Source: a virus
Reading direction: 5' to 3' (one strand)
Length of the DNA: 37,955 bases
Virus record (IMG/VR): IMGVR_UViG_3300046507_000257
Location: 1 to 37,955 of that record
Shown here: positions 3 to 32,329 of the stretch, one piece after another
Numbering within the stretch: the stretch's first letter is position 1
How the letters are laid out: each line of letters begins with the position of its first letter
Notes under the pieces: generated by a model
Told to the model about the DNA's origin: nothing
Databases searched by the model: none
What the model saw: the letters and a program-made list of their open reading frames with translations, nothing else
Program-made: the position numbers and the translations under genes

Positions 3-1058
3 TACCAGAACAGCGCGGGCTATTTTTATTACCGAAATCCTGACACGAAGAAGGATTACGGGATCGGCCGCGACCAGGCAAAGGCGTTCGGGGAGGCTCG
101 GGCGGCAAACGCTGAGCTGGAAAGCAGCCGCGGTTACAGGTCGGTCGTGCAGCGGATGACGGCGCCGGACGAAAAGACGCTACTGGAATGGTCGGTCGAA
201 TACCAGACGATCTACGAGGAAACACGCAGCCCGACGCCGAGCACCATGCAGACGGTCAAAGCTGGCGTGCGCGCTGTCGTAAAGGCGCCATTCGTCGATA
301 AGCACTTGCGGTCGATCCAGACGCGCGAGGTTGCCGAGTTCCTCGATGGCATCGATAAGCCGAATATGGCGAAGCTCGTCCGGAAGACGCTGTACGACAT
401 GATGCGCATTGCGGAGACGAAGGGAATGATCGACACCGGGAAGAACCCGGTGACCGTGACGCGCACGCCGGAAATCGAGGTCGAGCGGTCGCGCCTGACG
501 CTTGAGCAGTTTCGGGCGATCTACAAGGAAGCCGGCAAGATGGAGCCATGGGTGGCGCGAAGCTTTGAACTCGCGTTGCTGACAGGGCAGCGCCGGGAAG
601 ATGTCGCAAATATGCTGTTCGCAGACGCGAAAGACGGATTCCTGTTCGTCGAGCAGCAGAAAACGAAGATGAGGCTCCGGATTCCGTTGGCTGTTCGCAT
701 GGATGCGTTGGGTCTGTCTTTGGACGACGTAATCAAGCGGTGCCGGGATAAGGTCGTTTCGAAGTCGATGATCCATCATGCGCGAACCATCGGGAACCAG
801 AAACCGGGTTATCCGATCGATCCGGATTCGCTGACGCGAGGCTTCCGGCTGGCCCGTACGGAAGCAAAGATCAAATGGGAAGATGGCAAGAAGCCGGCGT
901 CGTTCCACGAACTGCGCAGCCTCGCCGCGCGTCTATACGCCGATCAGTACAGCCCTGAATTCGCCCAGGCGATCATGGGGCACAAGTCGGCCAGCATGAC
1001 CGAAATGTACCGAGACGTGCGCGGATCCGAATGGGTCGAAGTGAAGCTTGCCGTCTGA
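3..1058 (+). CDS. int: Phage integrase, lambda-type tyrosine recombinase (5' end cut by window edge)
   Basis: Site-specific recombinase that joins phage and host att sites. The frame is open from the left edge, so the start lies outside. The first residues (GYFYYRNPDTKK, then GIGRDQAKA) match the N-terminal arm-binding domain of lambda Int. The core-binding helices follow, then the catalytic domain with all active-site residues. Counting from the methionine at 147, these are Arg149 (TGQR), Lys172 (EQQKT), His254 and Arg257 (HELR), His279 (MGHK) and the nucleophile Tyr288 (MYRD). The C-terminus, RDVRGSEW, is also lambda-like. The gene appears intact apart from the missing first residues. No excisionase is visible; it may lie upstream, outside the window. 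Confidence 0.95.
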   Translation, partial: YQNSAGYFYYRNPDTKKDYGIGRDQAKAFGEARAANAELESSRGYRSVVQRMTAPDEKTLLEWSVEYQTIYEETRSPTPSTMQTVKAGVRAVVKAPFVDKHLRSIQTREVAEFLDGIDKPNMAKLVRKTLYDMMRIAETKGMIDTGKNPVTVTRTPEIEVERSRLTLEQFRAIYKEAGKMEPWVARSFELALLTGQRREDVANMLFADAKDGFLFVEQQKTKMRLRIPLAVRMDALGLSLDDVIKRCRDKVVSKSMIHHARTIGNQKPGYPIDPDSLTRGFRLARTEAKIKWEDGKKPASFHELRSLAARLYADQYSPEFAQAIMGHKSASMTEMYRDVRGSEWVEVKLAV

Positions 1059-1391: not shown

Positions 1392-2081
1392 ATGGCTAAA
1401 TTCCACTTCATCGAAGATTACGAGAAGCACGTCGATAATCTGGTCGCAGCACACCCGATCGACGAGGCGATGGCGCTGGCTGTCGGTGGAGACTATGACG
1501 GTGTCGGGAAGATCGAGACGGCTATATTGAAGGCGGCCGGGCTGAAGTCGGGAATGTCGGTGTTCGATCTGGGGTGCGGCAGCGGGCGGCTCGCCGCGAT
1601 GCTCGGTCAGGAGGATGGCCGGATCGAGTATCTCGGGACCGATGTCGTGCAGGCGCTGCTCGACTACGCTGCGACGAAGACGCCCGAGCATTACCGATTC
1701 ATCCGCCATCTCTCCTTGTCAGTTCCCGCTGAAGACGCGTCGATCGATATCGCCTGCGCATTCAGCGTGTTCACGCATCTACTGCACCACGAGACGTACA
1801 TCTATCTCGAAGACATGAAGCGCGCGCTGAAGCCGGGCGGGAAGGTTGTGTTCTCGTTCTTGGAGTTCGCGTCGCCGGGACACTGGAACGTGTTCGATGC
1901 GACGATCGCCTACGCGCGCGGGTCGGATACGCCCCACTTGAACCAGTTCATCGAGCGGAACGTCATCAATCTCTGGGCGAAGAACCTGGGATTTGAGGTC
2001 GAGCGTTACATCGAGGGTGGAGAGCGAGTCGGAGGAGGTGCACCGCTCGGGCAGTGCACCGTGATTCTGAGGAAGATTTAA
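1392..2081 (+). CDS. Class I SAM-dependent methyltransferase, substrate unknown
   Basis: A 229-residue protein with a Rossmann-type methyltransferase fold. Motif I is VFDLGCGSGR (residues 57-66), the acidic SAM-ribose residue is in LGTD (Asp84), and the post-motif region has LKPGGKVVFSF, typical of small-molecule or sugar methyltransferases. It lacks the DPPY or PC motifs of DNA methyltransferases, so DNA modification is unlikely. It has its own SD (AGGTGA), lies between int and the tail genes and points against the late genes, the position of a moron. Methylation of a host surface sugar would suit lysogenic conversion, but that is inference. Its stop lies one base from the stop of the converging gene. 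Confidence 0.8.
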   Translation: MAKFHFIEDYEKHVDNLVAAHPIDEAMALAVGGDYDGVGKIETAILKAAGLKSGMSVFDLGCGSGRLAAMLGQEDGRIEYLGTDVVQALLDYAATKTPEHYRFIRHLSLSVPAEDASIDIACAFSVFTHLLHHETYIYLEDMKRALKPGGKVVFSFLEFASPGHWNVFDATIAYARGSDTPHLNQFIERNVINLWAKNLGFEVERYIEGGERVGGGAPLGQCTVILRKI

Positions 2082-2082
2082 A

Positions 2083-2997
2083 TCAGGGAAGGCGTGCGAT
2101 AGAGATGAAATCAGTCGTCGATCCACCCAACGTACGCGCTGAACCGCTGTTCTGGCCGGTCTGAATGATCACAGTCTGACCGGCATTCAATAGCACCACC
2201 CCTGTAACAGAGACTGGGGTAATGGCAGCGGATGTGCTCGTGATCGCTGTCTGTCCGGCCGCTACGATCGTCCCGTTGACGTTGATATTTGCCGATACAG
2301 AACCTAATACGCCTGTTGCCGACGAGTATGTGAGATTGCACGTGACCATGTAATAGCCGGTCTCTGGCGCGGTGAATACGCCGGTCGCCGCGTTGAAATT
2401 AGCGTTTACACGGTCATAGACCTTCGTCCATCCTGTGACCGTCGTGCTAACGCCGCTTGGGATGCTCTGCGCGCTGCTGTTCTGATAAAGCAGCGCATCG
2501 TTACCGCTGGCGTTGAGGGTCGTGAACTTTCCTGTTCTCGATGCAGTGGCGCCGATGGCTGTATTGTCGATCGTGCCTCCGCCGATAGTCGCTGACGGCG
2601 TACTCAGCGAAGAGAATGCGCCACTGCTCGACGAGACGGAACCGATCGGACCGGGCGATGAAAACGTGGCGCCCCCAAGGGTGACAGCGTTGATGGTCGC
2701 GTTGCAGCCGAACCCGGAACCCGCCGTGTAGTTCAGTGCCGACGACGCGCCGGCGCAGTTCGAAACCGAGATGGCGCCCGGGATAGCTGAAGAACCCGTC
2801 GTATTGCCTAGCACGGTGTTGGACGCGATGGGGGCCAATGTCGCCGCTCCCCATGCGGGCGCCGTCGTTGCGCCCGTCGAGACGATCACCTGTCCGGCCG
2901 TTGAGCCGGCCGGGTTCAGCAGTTGAACGGGCGTGGTTGTCGCAGCGAACGCGGCGAACGAGAGAAGCGCGAGCGCGCCAGTCAGAAGGCGTTTCAT
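2083..2997 (-). CDS. Secreted C1q/TNF-like jelly-roll protein with fibre-like repeats
   Basis: A 304-residue protein. Residues 1-18 are a signal peptide (MKRLLTGALALLSFAAFA). The middle is a low-complexity Gly/Ser/Thr/Ala region with tail-fibre phrases (STAGQVIVSTGATTAPAWG, SNTVLGNTTGSSAIPG). The last 130 or so residues look like a C1q/TNF-like beta-sandwich (FNAATGVFTAPETGYYMVTCNL, then VLLNAGQTVIIQTG, ending DFISIARLP). It is the last gene of the late minus operon, directly after the lysis genes. A signal peptide is unexpected on a virion fibre assembled in the cytoplasm, so it may act at the envelope or outside the cell. The function is unknown; a detached fibre tip or adhesin is possible. 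Confidence 0.75.
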   Translation of the reverse strand: MKRLLTGALALLSFAAFAATTTPVQLLNPAGSTAGQVIVSTGATTAPAWGAATLAPIASNTVLGNTTGSSAIPGAISVSNCAGASSALNYTAGSGFGCNATINAVTLGGATFSSPGPIGSVSSSSGAFSSLSTPSATIGGGTIDNTAIGATASRTGKFTTLNASGNDALLYQNSSAQSIPSGVSTTVTGWTKVYDRVNANFNAATGVFTAPETGYYMVTCNLTYSSATGVLGSVSANINVNGTIVAAGQTAITSTSAAITPVSVTGVVLLNAGQTVIIQTGQNSGSARTLGGSTTDFISIARLP

Positions 2998-9373: not shown

Positions 9374-9384
9374 TGTCAAGTATA
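9374..9384 (-). promoter_or_regulatory. Possible promoter elements for scaffold (minus side of a divergent region)
   Basis: The 89-base gap between scaffold and the plus-strand island has, on the minus strand, a consensus -35 TTGACA (9379-9374). Seventeen bases further is only a weak -10 (TACAGG) that overlaps the scaffold ribosome site. An alternative -10 (TATACT, 9384-9379) has no good -35. The late operon is interrupted here, so a start point for scaffold is plausible. Confidence 0.3.
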
Positions 9385-9397
9385 CGGTAAAAATATC

Positions 9398-9426
9398 TTG
9401 TGATGCGCGAATTGTATGCCTATCAT
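9398..9426 (+). promoter_or_regulatory. Promoter of the RHH-membrane-dioxygenase island
   Basis: -35 TTGTGA (9398-9403) and -10 TATCAT (9421-9426) are 17 bases apart. Transcription would start at about 9433, which is the A of the first gene's ATG, and there is no ribosome site before that ATG. The first mRNA may therefore be leaderless, as lambda cI is from PRM. Confidence 0.5.
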
Positions 9427-9432
9427 GACCAC

Positions 9433-9579
9433 ATGAAACGGATTAGCCTCTTCTTCCCCGAGCCGATGCTTAAATGGCTTGTGGAATATGCCGAGAAGCA
9501 CGACCTATCGTTTGCGGAGGTGGTGCGCGACATGCTGCGCAAGCAAATCGAGATCGAAAAGGAGAAAGAAAAGAAATGA
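9433..9579 (+). CDS. Small ribbon-helix-helix DNA-binding protein (Arc/CopG-like)
   Basis: A 48-residue protein: MKRISLFFPEPMLKWLVEYA, then EKHDLSFAEVVRDMLRKQIE and a lysine/glutamate tail. The short N-terminal strand (RISLFFP) followed by two helices with the turn LSFAEVVRDML is the ribbon-helix-helix pattern of Arc, Mnt and CopG, about the size of P22 Arc (53). It probably binds DNA as a dimer and may control its own promoter, which ends at its start codon. It heads a three-gene plus-strand island inside the minus-strand late operon and overlaps the next gene by ATGA. Confidence 0.7.
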   Translation: MKRISLFFPEPMLKWLVEYAEKHDLSFAEVVRDMLRKQIEIEKEKEKK

Positions 9580-9815
9580 TGTACGCACTCAGTCACGCGC
9601 TTGTCGTCGGCGTGCTCATTGGCCTGGCGATCGGCCTAGTCCGCATGGGGCTGCTTCAGGCGGTCGCGGAGATCGTCATCCGCATTCTCGCCTTCCCGTT
9701 CGAACTGGCTGGCGACATCCGGCGCAATGGTTCGTCGGTGCTCAAGGCTATCTTCGGATGGAGCGTGATTATTACGATCCTCTATGGAATCTGGTTCGTT
9801 GGTAACCTAATTTGA
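9576..9815 (+). CDS. Two-TM membrane protein of the dioxygenase island
   Basis: A 79-residue protein starting at ATGATG (either codon possible; the first overlaps the upstream stop). Two hydrophobic segments are clear: residues 5-20 (LSHALVVGVLIGLAIGL) and about 58-78 (FGWSVIITILYGIWFVGNLI), with an amphipathic middle (IVIRILAFPFELAGDIRRNG). No signal-peptidase site and no family is recognised. Coupling to the RHH gene and a 7-base gap to the dioxygenase gene suggest one transcript. It could anchor or target the enzyme, or act alone on the inner membrane. Confidence 0.65.
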   Translation: MMYALSHALVVGVLIGLAIGLVRMGLLQAVAEIVIRILAFPFELAGDIRRNGSSVLKAIFGWSVIITILYGIWFVGNLI

Positions 9816-9822
9816 AGCGATT

Positions 9823-10410
9823 ATGAGAAATTTCCGAGTAATTAAAGACGGCATGGACGTCGGCGCCCTCGCGCTGGCGATTTCGATGAATCCCGAACTG
9901 TGGACGGCCGACACGTTCTTGCGGAACTACCCGCAGGGGCCGTTCGGCGACACCGACACGATTATGCTGCGCTTCCCGGAGATCCAGACCGGGATGAGCG
10001 AGGAAGAGATCGAGATGTACAAGTCGAACAACCTCGCCGGCTACGACCAGCACGAGTCGATCGCGTACCCGGCATGGTCGAAGCTGACGCAGGCGCATGC
10101 GTTCGTGTTCGATCTGGCGCGGTTCGTCGAGGCGACGCGGATCGGGCGGGTTCTCATCAATAGAATCAGGCCTGGCGGGCGCATTTATCCGCACGCGGAT
10201 ACTCCCGCGCATACGGAATATTACAAACGATTCCATTTGGTTATCCAAGGTCAACCCGGCGCCGTCATCACATGTGGTGACGAATCGCTGCAAATGCTAA
10301 CTGGTAGATTGTTTTATTTTGACAACAAACTTGTCCATGAGGTTCGCAACGAATCGTCCGTCGACCGAATCAGCATGGTCATTGACCTCAAATGCGGTTC
10401 CAATGATTAA
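9823..10410 (+). CDS. Fe(II)/2-oxoglutarate dioxygenase, aspartyl/asparaginyl beta-hydroxylase-like
   Basis: A 195-residue enzyme with a double-stranded beta-helix oxygenase pattern. The iron ligands are His124 and Asp126 in YPHAD (the HxD motif) and His172 in NKLVHEV. Arg182 (SVDRISMV) is placed to bind 2-oxoglutarate. The blocks GGRIYPHADTP, RFHLVIQG and GRLFYFDN are those of the Asp/Asn/Pro beta-hydroxylase family. It should couple 2-oxoglutarate decarboxylation to hydroxylation of an unknown substrate. It is the last gene of the plus-strand island and its 3' end overlaps the convergent terminase gene by 23 bases. Virion protein, host protein or base modification are all possible. Confidence 0.85.
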   Translation: MRNFRVIKDGMDVGALALAISMNPELWTADTFLRNYPQGPFGDTDTIMLRFPEIQTGMSEEEIEMYKSNNLAGYDQHESIAYPAWSKLTQAHAFVFDLARFVEATRIGRVLINRIRPGGRIYPHADTPAHTEYYKRFHLVIQGQPGAVITCGDESLQMLTGRLFYFDNKLVHEVRNESSVDRISMVIDLKCGSND

Positions 10411-11656
10411 CCGTTGGAATGATTTTGACGCTCGCTGCTAGGTTCGTCTGTTTCGCCCGGTACTCGGCCACGTTCTTGAAGTGCGTCATCGAAATACAGG
10501 TATAACGGAAGCTGTCCGCGGCGTGCGAGTGCTCGTCATGCTGCGGATGCCCCGCCTTGTTCCGTGCGTATCGGCGAAGGTGCTCTAACAGCACATCACA
10601 CTCATCCGAGATAAACGCCGTCTTCAGCGCCGCACGGGTTTGCTGAATGCCAGTCTCAACCGGCAGCGACGGAACGATGTGCACATCCCATCCGTAGCTT
10701 TTCATCAGCGCTTCCGACGACATCCCGGTATGCAGCGAGCGAGCGCGGCCGTCGTGCGGCAGCCATATTGTGGCGTGCTTCCATCCGTTCTGAATCAGCC
10801 AATCGCTATAGTCTTTCAGGGATAAACCGTGATCTTCGTGGAACGCCAGCACGCGAAGACCGCTGATGTCAGCTTGCGCGATGGTGATCGATGTCAGATC
10901 CGCGACGCCAAGGTCGAACACAGCATGCGTTGTCAGCGCTGGATCTTCTGCTATCGGGCGAATCCGGTTGCCGACTGAAAGCGCGTGCATTTCCTTCCGG
11001 TAGATCGCGCCATCGGTCGCCGCCATCGGGACGCCTTCCCAGATGTGATCATATCGGTCTGGGTCGTCAGCCTTCGAGCGCTGACGCTCGGCTTCTAGCG
11101 CCACGTTCCAAAAAGGATTCCGGTCCCAATTGACCTGAACCACGCGCGCATTGGCCGGCGGCTTGGCAATGAACGTCGTGTAGACCGGATCGGTGTCCAT
11201 TTCCGGATTCATCGACATCCAGATCTCGGAAGTCTCTTTCCGGATGGTCGGCAACAAAAGGTCCAACGAGCGCTGCGAAAGTGCCTGCGCTTCCTCGCAC
11301 CAGACAATATCGATGTTGTCGAGCGACTTGATCGAATCAGCCGTCACATCCGAGAGCCCGCGGAAAATGAACTTGCTGCCGTTCATCCCGGAAATCTCGG
11401 TATTCTTGATCGTGAAGAATGCCGATAGGCCGGCAGCCGCGATCCGCGATTCAATCATCGACTTGACCGATTCGTTGATCGATTGCTGAATTTCCCGGCA
11501 GCACAGAATACGAAGCGGCTCGGACGCAGCGCGGATAACCAGAGCCGTGCCGAACGACATCGACTTGCCCGAGCCGCGCCCACCGTGAAACACGGTATAG
11601 CGCGGACCCTGGCTAAGCAGGCATTCAGCCCATTCCGGTAGAGAAACCTCGCTCAA
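10388..11656 (-). CDS. Terminase large subunit (packaging ATPase and nuclease)
   Basis: A 422-residue packaging motor. The ATPase domain has Walker A GGRGSGKS (residues 25-32), Walker B IDIVW with catalytic acidic residues CEEA (115-123) and a coupling-type motif, WMSMNPE (146-152). The C-terminal RNase H-like nuclease has Asp248 (VFDLG) and the late acidic motif HSHAADSFRY, as in the Terminase_3/PBSX type. It docks on the portal and cuts concatemers. The start overlaps the upstream 103-residue gene by ATGA. A separate small-subunit candidate lies 12 kb upstream at 23893, an unusual distance. Confidence 0.93.
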   Translation of the reverse strand: MSEVSLPEWAECLLSQGPRYTVFHGGRGSGKSMSFGTALVIRAASEPLRILCCREIQQSINESVKSMIESRIAAAGLSAFFTIKNTEISGMNGSKFIFRGLSDVTADSIKSLDNIDIVWCEEAQALSQRSLDLLLPTIRKETSEIWMSMNPEMDTDPVYTTFIAKPPANARVVQVNWDRNPFWNVALEAERQRSKADDPDRYDHIWEGVPMAATDGAIYRKEMHALSVGNRIRPIAEDPALTTHAVFDLGVADLTSITIAQADISGLRVLAFHEDHGLSLKDYSDWLIQNGWKHATIWLPHDGRARSLHTGMSSEALMKSYGWDVHIVPSLPVETGIQQTRAALKTAFISDECDVLLEHLRRYARNKAGHPQHDEHSHAADSFRYTCISMTHFKNVAEYRAKQTNLAASVKIIPTVNHWNRI

Positions 11657-11964: not shown

Positions 11965-14258
11965 CTACCCACCGCCGGGCGATTGGTGACGTGTACCGGC
12001 GCCTGTGCAGCGGCCGGCGCGTTGCCCGCGGTCAACTGCTGCGCGGACGGATCGACCTGTTGCACGCCGTGAAGCGCGTTGACGCCCGGAGACGGCGCCG
12101 CGTTGCCGGTTGAGATCGCCGCATCCACCTTGCCGTCCATCGGCCCCTGCGGCTGGCTCTGGCTCACCTGCCCGGCCTGCGCGTTCACGCGGTCTTGGAT
12201 GCCCTGAAGCATAGCCATGATCGTCGACAACTGGCTTGCGTTCGTGTCGGAGATCGCCTGCGCCGCTTTCGCCTGGTTGAGTTCGGCCGCCGAAAGGCTC
12301 TGCACCGCGGATGCTTCGCTCTTGGTCGCGTTGGCCTGAGACTCCCGAGCCTGTGCCAGCAGAGCGACCGTCTGAGCGTCAGGCGGTGCATTGGCGGCCT
12401 GTTGCTGCTCGGCTTCGATTTCCTGCGCTTCCTCGTCATTCGGCTTGACGACACCGGCCTTGACGAGCTGCATGCGCGCGAACTTGGACAGATCCTCCAT
12501 CCCCTCTCCGTCCAGATTTCGGACGAGCGTCGCGACCATCAGTTGTTGCATCTGTGGGTCGACGATGCCGGGCAGGATCTTGGCAATCGCATTCACCGTC
12601 GAATCCTTCCGGCTGTTGAACGCGGGGCCTACGTCAACGAACACGTCAAGACCGTTCGTGAACGCCCGGGCGATCGTCGGATTGCCGTATTCGTCGATCG
12701 ACGGCACGTTGATTGTTGCCGATTCGGGGGAACCGTCCTCGCCATTGGACGAGAACTTGCGCTTTTCCTCCGTGTACACGTCGCACGCCATCGACAGATA
12801 AATCTTGCCGCACCGCTGCATCGCGCGCGACATGTTGTCGATGAAGATATAGACCTGCATGTCCTGATGCGCCTGAACACGGCTCACAAGAGCATCAGAC
12901 GTGTTTGCCGTTACCTGACCGGCCGCCAGATCGCCGCCCGTCACGTCGAGCATGTCGGCCGCAGTGATCTGCACCAGACCGGCCAATGCAGGCGGAACGT
13001 CCGGCTGCTTGATGTGACCCACCGGGCCGCTGACCGTCGACGAGCCGTCAGAGCCCGTAATCGGGTTGATCGTCAGGTAAGGGTTGTTGTCGACCAGATC
13101 GCGCGCCCACGCCAATTCATGCCCGGCGACCTGTTCCGGCAGGAAGATCGGTTTCTCGCGCGGCGTGAAGGCAGTAATGTCGGCCAACGTGCTGATCTGC
13201 ATGTTGTACAGCCGTTGCGAGTCCTTCGCCAGCCGCACAGCACCTTGGAAGCGCTCGATACCGTCGATCACTTGGCGGATGCCATAGACGACAACAATCG
13301 GGATCTCCGAGCCGGCGATATAGCCGCAGTCCTTCAGCACGCCACAGCCATCCATGAAGTACTTGCGCACGCGCTTGCATTTGCGCTTGCCCTCGCGGAC
13401 CTTCACGTATCCGACCGACGCCCAATGGTCCTCTTCTTCCTGCGCTTCCTCGCGTTCCTCAGCGTCGAGCCCGGCATAGACCTTTTGCTCAAGCCCGGAA
13501 TGCGGTTCGCGCCACACGGAGTACTGCTCGGTCTTCTGCTCGACCTCGTAGTACTCGCCGATATAGACGGAATCGTTCGTGAACCAGTCGAACTGTTTCA
13601 GCGAGCGAACTTCCTTAAAGCTGCTCGGGCGTTCAGCCAGTGTCACGGCATCGCCAAGGTATTCCGTCGTGTACGTGTCCCACGAGATGGGATTGAGCAC
13701 CGTACACCACTTCGCATCTGATTTGTCGAGCTTGCGACTGTCCGGATCGAAGAAAACGCTGATGTCGGCGTCAGGGATAGGCTCGAAACAGATCCGCTGC
13801 GGCGTGTCGTCGTCAATATCCGTTTCGGCGCGGTGATCGTAGTCATTCGTCAGGCGCCATGCTCCCATGCCGCCGGCCACAGCTTCGTCGAATGCGGAAA
13901 CATAAACGTCCTGCGCGCTGCTGTACTGCTCGTCCGACCTATAGACGATACGGAGCGCGTCAAGGTCATCCTGGCGGCTGTCGTCCTCGCTCGACCTGAA
14001 ATTGACTGTCATCGCATTGGCGCGGTACTCCGAGACGATCCGTCGAACCGCCTTCTGCACCTTGTTCACTTCGAAACGAGGACGATTGTTGAACTGCGCT
14101 CCAAGGCCCCCTTCCCACATGGCACCGGGGACATAAGCGAAGCGACGGTCTTCGAGCGACGCGAGCCGAATCTGTTGCTGGGGTCCATAAGCGCGATCGA
14201 ACCGTGCGGTTGCGCGGTCCCAAATCTTCGTCAGTCTGTCTTCTTTGGTCAGAGCCAT
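11961..14258 (-). CDS. Portal protein, P22 gp1 family
   Basis: A 765-residue portal (P22 gp1 is 725), which forms the dodecameric channel for DNA at one capsid vertex and nucleates head assembly. Typical features are the N-terminal wing/clip region (TARFDRAYGPQQQIRLASLED, then NRPRFEVNKVQKAVRRIVSE) and the stem/crown part with DSQRLYNMQISTLADI. Residues from about 630 form a long Gln/Ala-rich helical barrel (LLAQARESQANATKSEASA) with a disordered tail. I chose ATG 14258; the same frame has GTG codons at 14267 and 14264. Either choice overlaps the end of the GNAT gene. It is followed by ATGA coupling to the 103-residue gene. Confidence 0.92.
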   Translation of the reverse strand: MALTKEDRLTKIWDRATARFDRAYGPQQQIRLASLEDRRFAYVPGAMWEGGLGAQFNNRPRFEVNKVQKAVRRIVSEYRANAMTVNFRSSEDDSRQDDLDALRIVYRSDEQYSSAQDVYVSAFDEAVAGGMGAWRLTNDYDHRAETDIDDDTPQRICFEPIPDADISVFFDPDSRKLDKSDAKWCTVLNPISWDTYTTEYLGDAVTLAERPSSFKEVRSLKQFDWFTNDSVYIGEYYEVEQKTEQYSVWREPHSGLEQKVYAGLDAEEREEAQEEEDHWASVGYVKVREGKRKCKRVRKYFMDGCGVLKDCGYIAGSEIPIVVVYGIRQVIDGIERFQGAVRLAKDSQRLYNMQISTLADITAFTPREKPIFLPEQVAGHELAWARDLVDNNPYLTINPITGSDGSSTVSGPVGHIKQPDVPPALAGLVQITAADMLDVTGGDLAAGQVTANTSDALVSRVQAHQDMQVYIFIDNMSRAMQRCGKIYLSMACDVYTEEKRKFSSNGEDGSPESATINVPSIDEYGNPTIARAFTNGLDVFVDVGPAFNSRKDSTVNAIAKILPGIVDPQMQQLMVATLVRNLDGEGMEDLSKFARMQLVKAGVVKPNDEEAQEIEAEQQQAANAPPDAQTVALLAQARESQANATKSEASAVQSLSAAELNQAKAAQAISDTNASQLSTIMAMLQGIQDRVNAQAGQVSQSQPQGPMDGKVDAAISTGNAAPSPGVNALHGVQQVDPSAQQLTAGNAPAAAQAPVHVTNRPAVGR

Positions 14259-14707
14259 TTGCACCACTTTTTCTCGATAGGTTCGAAGCCCCGACGCTCA
14301 AAGAGCGGCCCCGCGGGGTACGCGATCTTTTCACCAGCCATGAAGCACTTCACGCCACGGCGCTTTAACTCCTGCTCGGCAGCGTCGAACAACGCTAGAC
14401 CGTGCATGAGTCCTCGCATGGACGGTTCCACGTAAAAAATGTCGCCGGCAGCTTCCATGCAATCGGTGTAATGAATGCTCGGGCGCACAAACGCGACAAA
14501 ATAGGCGACGATCCGGCCTTCTAGACGGCCAATCATCATCATCAGTTGATCCATGTCCTGCATCGCACGGTACAGAGCCACGTTCGGCTTCAGGTCATAA
14601 CCCTGGTGCTTGTGCAAGCTGATCTCGTCGTAATGCTTGTGAAGCAGTGGCAACAGTTCGTCATAGACATCTTGAAACCGCTCCACACTGAAAACAGGCT
14701 TGGTCAT
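14249..14707 (-). CDS. GNAT-fold acetyltransferase-like protein in the virion operon
   Basis: A 152-residue protein with a GNAT outline: a strand pair with GRLEGRIVAYFVAFV (58-74), a V-shaped acetyl-CoA region (DIFYVEPSMRGLMHGLALFD, 89-108) and the C-terminal block KCFMAGEK...AGPLFERRGFEPIEKKW. GNAT-like proteins occur beside portal and ejection genes of several podoviruses, including T7 gp13, where they are virion associated. It has a good ribosome site (AGGAC) and overlaps the portal start. Whether it acetylates anything, or is only structural, cannot be told. Confidence 0.7.
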   Translation of the reverse strand: MTKPVFSVERFQDVYDELLPLLHKHYDEISLHKHQGYDLKPNVALYRAMQDMDQLMMMIGRLEGRIVAYFVAFVRPSIHYTDCMEAAGDIFYVEPSMRGLMHGLALFDAAEQELKRRGVKCFMAGEKIAYPAGPLFERRGFEPIEKKWCKWL

Positions 14708-18228: not shown

Positions 18229-19574
18229 TTCGTCGGATCGAAGGAGTTTTCGCCCGGCGTCGTGTAGTAGCTCGGCGCCGCCTTCTTGCTGAACTGCGTG
18301 AAGCTGTCACCCTGCTTGACGAATGCCGCCCCGCTCGGCGTCTGGATAGTCATGTCACGGTACGCCGGCCCGAACGAGCCGTTATTGCTGCGCGCCCAAT
18401 CGCCGCGAGCGTTCGACCATGCGGCTTTCGACGCGAGGAACTTCTGCCGCGCTTGCAGGTACGTGGCCCATGCCTTCGGACTGTCCGTGATCTGTGGCAC
18501 GTTCTGCACTGCACGAGCCGTCGACGCGTCTGTAAAATTGCCGTTGACCATGCTCGCCGTTTCGGCCTGCGTGACCAGAGATGCAGCCTCCTGTCGCAAC
18601 TGCTGAAGCTTCGACGTGTCGCCTGTCCACTTCCGGCCTGCCTGATCCCACGTCGCCCCGAGCAAACCACTCGTGCCGCCGTTCTCGATCTGATTGAACG
18701 CGCCGGCGAGTTCGCCCGATTGGTCGGCGATCTGCTGATTCCGTTGTCCGTCGTCGTATTCCTTCTGCGACGAGGCGATCGCCGCGGGAGGCGCGACCAA
18801 TTGCTGATTGGTGACGCCCGTCTGAGCCGTCGTCAGACCAGTTCCAGCCTGAGTCGATTCGACATTCGCTTGAGCTTGCGCAGGGGCATATGCGGCCGCC
18901 GTTCCAGCACGAGAAGCATCTGCGTTTGCCTGAGCGACCGCCGCTGGGACTGTTGCCTGCGCCACGACCGCGCCAGCTTGGGATTTCTGGTTCGCATACA
19001 GTTGATCCGCTGTATTTGCACTGCCCGAATTCAGGATGCTCGAAGCGACCTGCATCGCAGCCTGCGGATTCTTCTGGATCAGTGCTTCGAATGAGCGCGT
19101 GGTCGCCGCGCCCTGAGCGTCGCCAGAGTTCTCCTGACGCACCGCACGCGCCTCCAACAGTTCGAGCGCGCCGTTCGGATCGTTCGCCTGCAACCGTGCC
19201 TGCATTCCTGCAACCGTGCTGACAGCGTCCGACGACATGCGAGCTCGCACGTTCTGCCAGTTCGTTTGCGCCTGCTGCGTGTTCTGGTTGACCGTCTGCG
19301 CGAACTCGGGATACTTGACCGCAAGCGCCTGATAGTCGGCCGGCGAGGCGTTCGGATTCGACGCGAGCGCCTGCGATTCCATCTGGAACGCCTGCTGACG
19401 CTGGTTGTTGGCAACTTGAAGCCCAGCGTTTGATACCGTGGCCGCGTTTCCTGCATTCGTAGCGGCTATGCGCGATCCCATCGTGGCATCATTGAATCCA
19501 AGCTGCTGACCCGTCTGCGCCGCCTGCCCCATTTGGGTATCGATACCCTTACCGATGTTTGAGAAGTCGAACAT
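18225..19574 (-). CDS. Ejection protein (P22 gp20-like position)
   Basis: A 449-residue Ala/Gln/Asn-rich, mostly helical protein. It begins MFDFSNIGKGIDTQMGQAAQ and has long repeating helices (AATNAGNAATVSNAGLQVAN, QAGAVVAQATVPAAVAQANA). The C-terminal third has QQIADQSGELAGAFNQIENGG and a compact end (MTIQTPSGAAFVKQGDSF). Composition and place between the short membrane-active ejection protein and the transglycosylase protein match P22 gp20. No enzyme motif is visible. It overlaps both neighbours by a few bases. Confidence 0.72.
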   Translation of the reverse strand: MFDFSNIGKGIDTQMGQAAQTGQQLGFNDATMGSRIAATNAGNAATVSNAGLQVANNQRQQAFQMESQALASNPNASPADYQALAVKYPEFAQTVNQNTQQAQTNWQNVRARMSSDAVSTVAGMQARLQANDPNGALELLEARAVRQENSGDAQGAATTRSFEALIQKNPQAAMQVASSILNSGSANTADQLYANQKSQAGAVVAQATVPAAVAQANADASRAGTAAAYAPAQAQANVESTQAGTGLTTAQTGVTNQQLVAPPAAIASSQKEYDDGQRNQQIADQSGELAGAFNQIENGGTSGLLGATWDQAGRKWTGDTSKLQQLRQEAASLVTQAETASMVNGNFTDASTARAVQNVPQITDSPKAWATYLQARQKFLASKAAWSNARGDWARSNNGSFGPAYRDMTIQTPSGAAFVKQGDSFTQFSKKAAPSYYTTPGENSFDPTK

Positions 19575-20209
19575 TAGGCCGCCTGATATGCACGGTCTGC
19601 ATAGCGGTTGATCCCTTGCGTGATCGACCCAAGACCGGAGTTATATGAATTCGCTAATGACGTGTCAAACATGCCTTGAGCATCGGCCGATTGATTGTTT
19701 GCCCCTGTCACGCCATTCGTTAGGGCGGTGCTTGCCGCCTGCGACGCCGCAATCGATTGGCGGCCTGTATCCATCAACTGACCGTACCCCTGAAGTCGCT
19801 GAGTGATAAGCCCGTTTAGCGTATTGATCGACGTGTTGGCGAGCGTATTGCTCGTATTGCTGCCGCGCAATCCGCCTGTTGCCGAGGCGTTGGCAAGGAT
19901 GTTCTCGTTACCGGTCTGCATCAGCCCTTGGTATTGCGGACCCTGCTTGATCTCATTGATCGCTGTGCCCTGCGCCTGATTGCCATTGATGCCAATCAGA
20001 TTTTCATATCCCGCAATCCCGTTATTTCCGGCGCCGAGATACGGCTGTATTTGCCCCTGCATCGTGTTGAATTGCTGTTGCGCAAATTGCAGGTTGCTCT
20101 GCGCTGCTTGTTGCTGCGCATCTGCCGCATCGCCCGCCGCGCTCGCAGACATAGCAGAACCTGCTATGCCAGCAATGGCAGTCCCCGCGCCTACCGCTGC
20201 TGCTACCAT
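19574..20209 (-). CDS. Ejection protein with membrane-active N-terminus (P22 gp7-like)
   Basis: A 211-residue protein. Residues 1-27 form a Gly/Ala hydrophobic segment (AAAVGAGTAIAGIAGSAMSA) like those of P22 gp7 and other DNA transfer proteins. A Gln-rich coiled region follows (DAQQQAAQSNLQFAQQQFNT), then Asn/Gly/Ser-rich repeats (ASATGGLRGSNTSNTLANTS). It is the first of three consecutive ejection genes. It should be packaged in the capsid and inserted into the host envelope at infection. Confidence 0.75.
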   Translation of the reverse strand: MVAAAVGAGTAIAGIAGSAMSASAAGDAADAQQQAAQSNLQFAQQQFNTMQGQIQPYLGAGNNGIAGYENLIGINGNQAQGTAINEIKQGPQYQGLMQTGNENILANASATGGLRGSNTSNTLANTSINTLNGLITQRLQGYGQLMDTGRQSIAASQAASTALTNGVTGANNQSADAQGMFDTSLANSYNSGLGSITQGINRYADRAYQAA

Positions 20210-31183: not shown

Positions 31184-31267
31184 TGCTTTACCTCCTTTCG
31201 TTAAAAAAAGAACAACATGAAATTGACGCAAAAGAAGATCCGGCTCATGAAGCTAGCCAGAAGGAAA

Positions 31268-31504
31268 TCAGGCGCCGATCTTTCCGGTGCGCCGGTAGTA
31301 GGTCCAGTCGATCCGGTCGTTGAGCGTCTCGCTCATGACGCCGGTGTGCGCCTCGACGGCGGAGCAGTGCTCAGCCGGGACGCGACCTTGCTTCCGCCAC
31401 TCTTGGATGACCTGGTACCCGGACAGCTCCAGAGCCCGGGCCATCGCGCTCAAGGTTCCGAAGTGCTTAATGGCACGTTCGAGAGAATCGTTGGTTTGGG
31501 TCAT
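31268..31504 (-). CDS. Cro-like repressor (YdaS/Cro HTH)
   Basis: A 78-residue protein, MTQTNDSLERAIKHFGTLSA, with helix-turn-helix MARALELSGYQVIQEWRKQG and RVPAEHCSAVEAHTG. The last part, typical of YdaS/Cro-type repressors, has VPAEHC between helices. It is divergent from the CI-like gene. Two further in-frame ATGs exist; the one at 31528 coincides with the predicted transcription start, so an 86-residue leaderless form is possible. It should bind the CAAG-N5-CTTG operators and turn down cI in the lytic cycle. Confidence 0.75.
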   Translation of the reverse strand: MTQTNDSLERAIKHFGTLSAMARALELSGYQVIQEWRKQGRVPAEHCSAVEAHTGVMSETLNDRIDWTYYRRTGKIGA

Positions 31505-31535
31505 GACGGACTTGATGGTGGTGTGCATGGAAACC

Positions 31536-31564
31536 ATTCTATACAAGTGTCGCTTGTGTTGCAA
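31536..31564 (-). promoter_or_regulatory. Promoter of cro and the minus-strand early operon (PR-like)
   Basis: On the minus strand -35 TTGCAA (31564-31559) and -10 TAGAAT (31541-31536) are exactly 17 bases apart. One operator (31544-31556) fills the spacer and another (31562-31574) overlaps the -35. Repressor binding would block it, as CI blocks PR. The predicted transcript begins at about 31528. Confidence 0.7.
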
Positions 31565-31595
31565 GCACCTCTTGCATTTTCGCAAGAATCACTTG
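31544..31595. promoter_or_regulatory. Three tandem operators CAAG-N5-CTTG between cro and cI
   Basis: Three copies of a 13-base dyad, CAAGTGTCGCTTG (31544-31556), CAAGCACCTCTTG (31562-31574) and CAAGAATCACTTG (31583-31595), have centres 18 and 21 bases apart. The arms are identical and the middle five bases vary. Repressor dimers would bind next to each other along the helix, as at lambda OR. The two sites nearest cro cover the cro promoter; the third is next to the cI start. Confidence 0.8.
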
Positions 31596-31605
31596 CAGAT
31601 AGGAT
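31577..31605 (+). promoter_or_regulatory. Weak cI promoter candidate (PRM-like)
   Basis: A poor -35 (TTTTCG, 31577-31582) and a fair -10 (TAGGAT, 31600-31605) are 17 bases apart. Transcription would begin at the cI ATG (31613), giving a leaderless mRNA as at lambda PRM. A weak -35 next to an operator suits activation by bound repressor. AGGA (31601-31604) could alternatively be a ribosome site if transcription starts further up. Confidence 0.3.
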
Positions 31606-31612
31606 GGCGCAC

Positions 31613-32329
31613 ATGACAACCATTCACACCAGAATCAAAGAACTTAGGGCAGACAGAGGCCTCTCGTTGGAGGCTCTGGCTGCTCGTCTCGACGTCTCCT
31701 GGCAGACCATCCAGCAATGGGAAAAAGGGAAAACGACGCCGAGCATAAAAAGAATTGAAGCAATTGCTGAAGCACTGAATACAACCCGGGAATACCTCCT
31801 ATTCGGCGAATCGGGGCAGACAAAAATAGGTCAATCTTCCGTATCGACGGAATCTGAAGGCGCAAACGTTACCGAAAGTAGCGCGCAGGCTGTGCCATTG
31901 CGCTATTCTGTAGACGTTAAAAACTTCCGACGTGTGTTCGTGGTTGGTCGAGCGCAAGGCGGATTACCTGAACGAATCTGGACGGATGGGGATTATCCAG
32001 TGGGAGCTACCGATGAGTATGCGGAGTTGGCGACGACCGATCCGCATGCCTTTCTATCGCCAATTGTCGGAACTTCGATGGTTCCGAAGTTCAATCCTGG
32101 CGACTTCGCCTTTGTAGAGCCCGGCACGGCGCCGGAAATCGAAGATGACGTGCTGGTGCGGCTGAACACCGGCGAAACCATGTTGAAGCGTCTCATTTCA
32201 CGCCGCGGAGGCATACAGTTCGCCTCCTATAATGAGCCCGGGACTCTCCTTTACCAGCCGGAGGAAATCACCTGGATGTACTACGTTGCGCATTACGTCC
32301 CGGCCCGTAAAATCAAACACCGGATGTAA
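31613..32329 (+). CDS. CI-like lysogeny repressor, HTH plus S24 peptidase
   Basis: A 238-residue repressor. Residues 5-64 are an HTH_3 domain (LEALAARLDVSWQTIQQWEK, ALNTTREYLL). Residues 110-235 are a LexA/S24 autoprotease with Ser155 (VGTSMVPKF) and general-base Lys192 (ETMLKRL). The likely self-cleavage region is VVGRAQGGLPE (110-120), though it is not a simple Ala-Gly. SOS-activated RecA would trigger cleavage and prophage induction. I chose ATG 31613, eight bases after AGGA; ATG 31604 is in frame but lacks spacing. It should bind the five CAAG-N5-CTTG sites. Confidence 0.92.
   Translation: MTTIHTRIKELRADRGLSLEALAARLDVSWQTIQQWEKGKTTPSIKRIEAIAEALNTTREYLLFGESGQTKIGQSSVSTESEGANVTESSAQAVPLRYSVDVKNFRRVFVVGRAQGGLPERIWTDGDYPVGATDEYAELATTDPHAFLSPIVGTSMVPKFNPGDFAFVEPGTAPEIEDDVLVRLNTGETMLKRLISRRGGIQFASYNEPGTLLYQPEEITWMYYVAHYVPARKIKHRM

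Follow-up and report, generated by a model that had tools for sequence, protein, structure and literature searches.

A PF05118-type oxygenase encoded antisense to the virion genes of a temperate podovirus, and its relatives beside podovirus ejection-protein genes

A plus-strand island between the scaffold and terminase genes

The window, by which we mean the whole 37,955-base virus record, belongs to a temperate podovirus of Burkholderiales, the temperate lifestyle being judged from its predicted integrase and CI-type repressor genes. The virion genes lie on the minus strand in the order head-tail adaptor (Ad3), head closure (Hc3), ejection protein, two internal virion proteins, GNAT acetyltransferase, portal and terminase large subunit (terL), and beyond terL the same strand carries scaffold, major capsid protein and tail fibres. 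Three plus-strand open reading frames occupy the interval between scaffold and terL with the coordinates, order and position given in the initial annotation; the first two, encoding a putative ribbon-helix-helix (RHH) regulator and a small membrane protein, share an ATGA overlap, and the stop codon of the third, encoding an Fe(II)/2OG oxygenase, runs 23 nt into the convergent terL gene. The features referred to below are as follows.

147-1058, plus strand: tyrosine integrase, a temperate-phage marker
8501-9343, minus strand: scaffold protein, divergent neighbour of the island (phrog_648, 7e-45)
9380-9385, no strand assigned: GTATAC box, which 15 of 17 distinct upstream sequences have at 52-54 nt ahead of the RHH start
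9398-9426, plus strand: promoter-like TTGTGA-17-TATCAT, whose start would coincide with the RHH ATG
9433-9579, plus strand: putative RHH regulator, 48 aa (profile matches)
9576-9815, plus strand: small membrane protein, 79 aa
9823-10410, plus strand: Fe(II)/2OG oxygenase, 195 aa (PF05118; H124, D126, H172, R182)
10388-11656, minus strand: terL, convergent neighbour of the island (Terminase_3, 1.6e-33)
14249-14707, minus strand: GNAT acetyltransferase, homologous to the gene directly after the oxygenase in other podoviruses
19574-20209, minus strand: DNA-ejection (internal virion) protein (phrog_598, 3.5e-19), homologous to the gene that follows the oxygenase-GNAT pair elsewhere
31217-32329, plus strand: CI-type repressor with HTH and S24 peptidase, a temperate-phage marker

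A search among phages returned no DNA near-match to positions 1-24000 of the window. Matches of window proteins to cupin_2, PIN and PrgI profiles were weak and were judged incidental.

Island content and control region in close relatives

Relatives were fetched by terL rather than by the oxygenase, and only loci with judgeable sequence were counted; the antisense oxygenase was present in 32 of 32, and the presence/absence polymorphism envisaged in the initial annotation was not seen. The 52 antisense loci collapsed to 27 distinct islands of 861-1556 nt, in which the genes were linked at a single site, as had been anticipated; the membrane protein was encoded in 27/27, the RHH regulator in 24/27 and the oxygenase in all, and one minimal locus (L149) retained the oxygenase with only a 27-aa peptide ahead of it. 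Because the RHH gene is missing from three of the 27 islands and L149 keeps the oxygenase, the oxygenase is the constant element and the RHH gene is dispensable; the originally described three-gene set is thus a frequent linkage but not an obligate unit. Paraburkholderia sp. BL9I2N2 has an integrated copy on a contig of 1.16 Mb, and Caballeronia glathei carries one copy on a 47.5 kb contig. An apparently empty scaffold-terL site in the distant terL relative MW202691 was set aside, its gene order being too different to inform.

Additional small reading frames, zinc-ribbon-like and others, are inserted in some islands. One locus (L005:1779-2315) contains two RHH genes of different type together with a zinc-ribbon-like frame, which suggests repeated gene accretion at the site, and another (L123:10594-11085) has an HNH endonuclease gene (Pfam HNH_3) between oxygenase and terL, with similar frames in L114 and L115.

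Comparison with relatives gave dN/dS values of 0.08-0.12 for the oxygenase and 0.03-0.18 for the RHH gene, whereas the membrane protein is the least constrained gene of the island (0.44 vs 0.11 for the oxygenase). The homologues in 27 distinct islands and these ratios, less strikingly in the case of the membrane protein, argue that the genes are real. The membrane protein has two hydrophobic stretches flanking a conserved (R/W)RNG..VLK motif and matched no family among Pfam, PHROG and NCBIfam profiles; it would be either a local partner or a passenger. The RHH assignment draws on weak profile matches (phrog_876 repressor, 5.7e-5; Pfam CopG_antitoxin, 18.2 vs a cut-off of 28) and on a typical sequence pattern, and is accordingly treated as putative.

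Small membrane proteins are common as exclusion factors, and the RHH protein weakly matches antitoxin-type profiles; the two could thus form the functional unit, acting in superinfection exclusion or in a toxin-antitoxin-like manner, with the oxygenase as passenger. We regard this as very unlikely: it is the RHH gene that is absent from three islands and the oxygenase that is in every one, L149 keeps the oxygenase behind nothing but its short peptide, the membrane protein shows the weakest constraint, and a screen for defence-system membership gave zero PADLOC matches.

The initial annotation had also given the island its own promoter. TTGTGA-17-TATCAT is weak by consensus and, taken alone, does not exceed chance (the region has 3 promoter-like sites vs 1.6 expected), whereas the region around it is conserved: relatives retain a TATAAT/TATCAT-like hexamer about 6 nt upstream of the RHH start, and the RHH-less loci L028 and L124 have TTGTCA-17-TATCAT followed by an AGGAG site upstream of the membrane-protein gene. 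We take the retained hexamer and its counterpart at the RHH-less loci as support for a promoter. Since the -10 element would lie so near the RHH ATG, and no Shine-Dalgarno sequence is found upstream of that start, the RHH message would probably be leaderless.

The GTATAC box is a doubtful RHH operator, as it persists at the RHH-less loci L028, L124, L099 and L149; it may be an operator or, given this retention, may instead supply the TATACT -10 element of a minus-strand scaffold promoter. Such a promoter would make sense given the approximately 1 kb of untranslated antisense sequence between scaffold and terL. Two RHH types occur, each with different upstream sites. Phages of the L007 type encode the different RHH protein and carry a perfect 12-nt inverted repeat spanning the promoter (L007:810-851, GCTGCACATGTG/CACATGTGCAGC, upstream of the alternative RHH gene), a likely operator, and this repeat supports autoregulation in those phages. 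The earlier proposal of a self-regulated moron is therefore plausible in its first half, whereas presence in 32 of 32 loci speaks against a moron. Like phage morons, the island consists of counter-oriented genes with a candidate promoter of their own inside the late region; unlike them, it is fixed in its clade, appears to derive from a late-operon gene and has no terminator-like site that we could find after the oxygenase, between island and terL.

Sense-strand relatives and the history of the oxygenase

Sense-oriented oxygenase genes with 42-56% identity turn up at numerous other podovirus loci, as well as in prophages of Burkholderiaceae and Acinetobacter, and the family as a whole has members in phages that infect Pseudomonas, Acinetobacter, Limnohabitans and Burkholderiaceae. 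Of the sense loci, which were fetched with the oxygenase alone as query, 59 had downstream sequence; in 57 of these the next gene encodes a GNAT acetyltransferase, the frame of which abuts or overlaps that of the oxygenase. The usual order, which includes phage PfAn1 and Burkholderiaceae prophages, is Hc3 ... oxygenase, GNAT, DNA-ejection protein. Neither the RHH nor the membrane-protein gene was found beside sense copies, a further respect in which the three genes part company. A small beta-sandwich protein encoded ahead of the sense oxygenase was considered as an obligate partner and rejected, being present at only 17/43 loci.

In Limnohabitans phage DC33 the oxygenase-GNAT pair lies between terL and the head-tail adaptor/portal gene, and because the site differs we conclude that the pair moves together. 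The DC33 record (L002, PQ492659.1) is filed as Inoviridae, yet encodes a terminase and a head-tail adaptor; its taxonomy line looks wrong. Among Burkholderiaceae prophages of a divergent group (35-41% identity), the GNAT slot is taken by a cupin, with an ejection-type protein behind it, as seen by eye at six loci, four of which were checked by Pfam with three above the cut-off. The small cupin at these loci (L142, L144, L145, L146, L154 and L156; PF07883) also matches phrog_12032, 'short tail fiber'.

Phages of the antisense clade always retain the GNAT gene where sequence exists, within the late operon and next to the genes for the portal and a large internal virion protein; that of the window scores 25.8 bits against Acetyltransf_1 (cut-off 20.7). 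Zobellviridae have the GNAT after Hc3 without an oxygenase, and the GNAT is therefore not dependent on the oxygenase. A GNAT following Hc3 has been likened to T7 gp13, and a role in virion morphogenesis was suggested for it (PMC6775973). In both cases the GNAT gene has head-closure or tail genes on one side and ejection-protein genes on the other (PMC6775973), whereas T7 has no oxygenase at that position; the only similarity to gp13 that we detected is one of position, as hhalign gave sequence homology a probability of 0.6% and hmmsearch returned no hit.

In both the oxygenase tree and the GNAT tree, the antisense phages form one clade with full support (100/100). When rooted on the divergent cupin-type sequences, this clade nests inside the sense-type rows, although support is only 75-82% for inner branches on which this rooting depends; the minimal island of L149 falls in a polytomy (a basal position was tried). 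The simplest account from these trees is that the oxygenase left the ejection cassette once, being relocated and inverted, and that the GNAT remained in the late operon. Because the antisense clade nests within the sense type as one event, the island is best read as a virion-cassette enzyme that was moved and brought under new control, and not as a unit assembled from scratch. We hold this description of the island's anatomy and history with high confidence.

Active site, fold and candidate substrates

The oxygenase scores 52 bits against PF05118 (Asp_Arg_Hydrox; curated cut-off 22.6). Its iron ligands H124, D126 and H172 and its 2OG arginine R182 are invariant in 46 aligned phage relatives, bearing out the initial reading of an intact HxD motif, distal His and Arg, and a phage-specific block ahead of the core, LWxxDTxLRxYPQGPFG, is nearly or fully invariant in the same set. 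Confidence in the AlphaFold model is high (pLDDT 89) apart from residues 34-38 within this block, a region that may form a substrate lid. The predicted fold is a double-stranded beta-helix, and its best matches include 4p7w, 5apa and 5jqy (Z 13.6-13.8). The protein thus belongs to PF05118 with an intact active site, and 2OG-dependent activity is predicted.

The known members of this family, AspH, L-proline cis-4-hydroxylase and LpxO, share the beta-helix and the 2OG/Fe site but lack the phage-specific block. AspH has the same distal His/Arg spacing (H725/R735, corresponding to H172/R182), whereas it aligns with HTG where the phage enzyme has a full HxD, and the phage enzyme has no TPR domain. 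Best Foldseek matches to the model were L-proline cis-4-hydroxylase (4p7w, E 6e-10) and AspH; proline 3-hydroxylase and HIF prolyl hydroxylases score at similar Z, and a nucleoside-antibiotic hydroxylase also ranks high. Since the nearest folds span both kinds of substrate at similar Z, fold alone cannot separate protein from small-molecule substrates.

The oxygenase might accordingly hydroxylate a free amino acid such as proline, with the GNAT acetylating the product, a reading with which the top Foldseek match, the high rank of proline 3-hydroxylase and the nucleoside-antibiotic enzyme, and the tight pairing with an acetyltransferase would agree. It is nevertheless quite unlikely in our estimation, as the scores of peptide hydroxylases are just as good, the neighbourhood has no genes for biosynthesis or transport, and the constant placement beside ejection genes would be left unexplained. 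In addition, the C-terminal domain that L-proline cis-4-hydroxylase has beyond the beta-helix (4p7w, 280 residues, the model aligning to 1-176) is absent from the phage protein.

Lysogenic conversion would give the island a role in the prophage, in which oxygenase and membrane protein modify the envelope (lipid A acyl chains, for example) and so alter adsorption or host fitness. Integrated prophages such as L124 exist, the island has its own promoter region outside the late operon and a membrane protein linked in every distinct island, and LpxO, which acts on lipid A acyl chains, shares the Pfam family and gives a weak NCBIfam match. That match, however, is 15.6-21.3 bits against an equivalog cut-off of 500, and identity with LpxO was rejected on this rule (15.6 bits). 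Moreover, the oxygenase is soluble, most family members sit in late operons with no membrane-protein neighbour, and the island is in every clade member rather than sporadic; we consider lysogenic conversion unlikely.

Placement beside ejection genes and a GNAT is the feature that the family shares, and for that reason we consider an ejection protein or another virion protein the likeliest target of hydroxylation; this substrate class, one of several options named at the outset, is now the leading idea, predicted from gene context. A place for the oxygenase in the virion-assembly or DNA-ejection programme, as a protein hydroxylase, is put forward tentatively, at somewhat less than an even chance. 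Gene neighbourhood does not identify a substrate, some of the nearest solved structures are hydroxylases of free amino acids, and a role outside virion assembly would be equally compatible with the antisense location and the early-type companion genes.

The comparison of loci shows a family encoded in the late operon of many podoviruses, directly before the GNAT (or, in the divergent group, a cupin) and usually an ejection protein, and an oxygenase gene that moved once, in the ancestor of the Burkholderiales clade, to the opposite strand between terL and scaffold. There, the conserved promoter would drive the membrane protein and oxygenase independently of the late operon, and the RHH protein, encoded first where present, would repress it. 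The oxygenase would hydroxylate a residue of the ejection protein or another virion protein, and the GNAT would act on the same target or assembly step. Independent control may let the enzyme accumulate ahead of its substrate. In the full model, podoviruses share a widespread modification cassette, made up of a PF05118 hydroxylase and a GNAT or cupin, by which ejection or virion proteins are hydroxylated; in one temperate clade the hydroxylase would have come under its own RHH-controlled, leaderless antisense promoter, such that the enzyme is made before the virion proteins. This model is possible but more doubtful than the general role.

The oxygenase family, RHH regulators and GNATs are all known kinds of protein, and phage oxygenases are usually filed under auxiliary metabolism or DNA repair. 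Within a limited literature that included few subscription journals, we found no prior description of a fixed oxygenase-GNAT/cupin-ejection cassette or of its antisense derivative. What is described here is one oxygenase family tied to virion ejection-protein genes and a GNAT across phages of several hosts. If ejection proteins were hydroxylated, an oxygen- and 2OG-dependent step would control the assembly or delivery of short-tailed phages, and the antisense clade, in which the gene was relocated and the enzyme retained, offers a natural test. The available text of reports on cyanophage 2OG oxygenases and on Roseobacter podophage 'aspartyl hydroxylase' and GNAT genes treats them as scattered auxiliary metabolic genes (PMC3037559, PMC11288001); these are likewise phage-encoded 2OG oxygenases, Asp/Asn hydroxylases among them, whereas the fixed cassette and the antisense RHH island are not described in that text.

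Two further genes of the window lie near its start. A SAM-dependent methyltransferase gene (1392-2081, plus strand) adjoins the integrase gene and is a candidate lysogeny gene, and a C1q-domain protein that barely exceeds the Pfam cut-off (2083-2997, minus strand) is encoded where the late operon ends, next to the holin gene.
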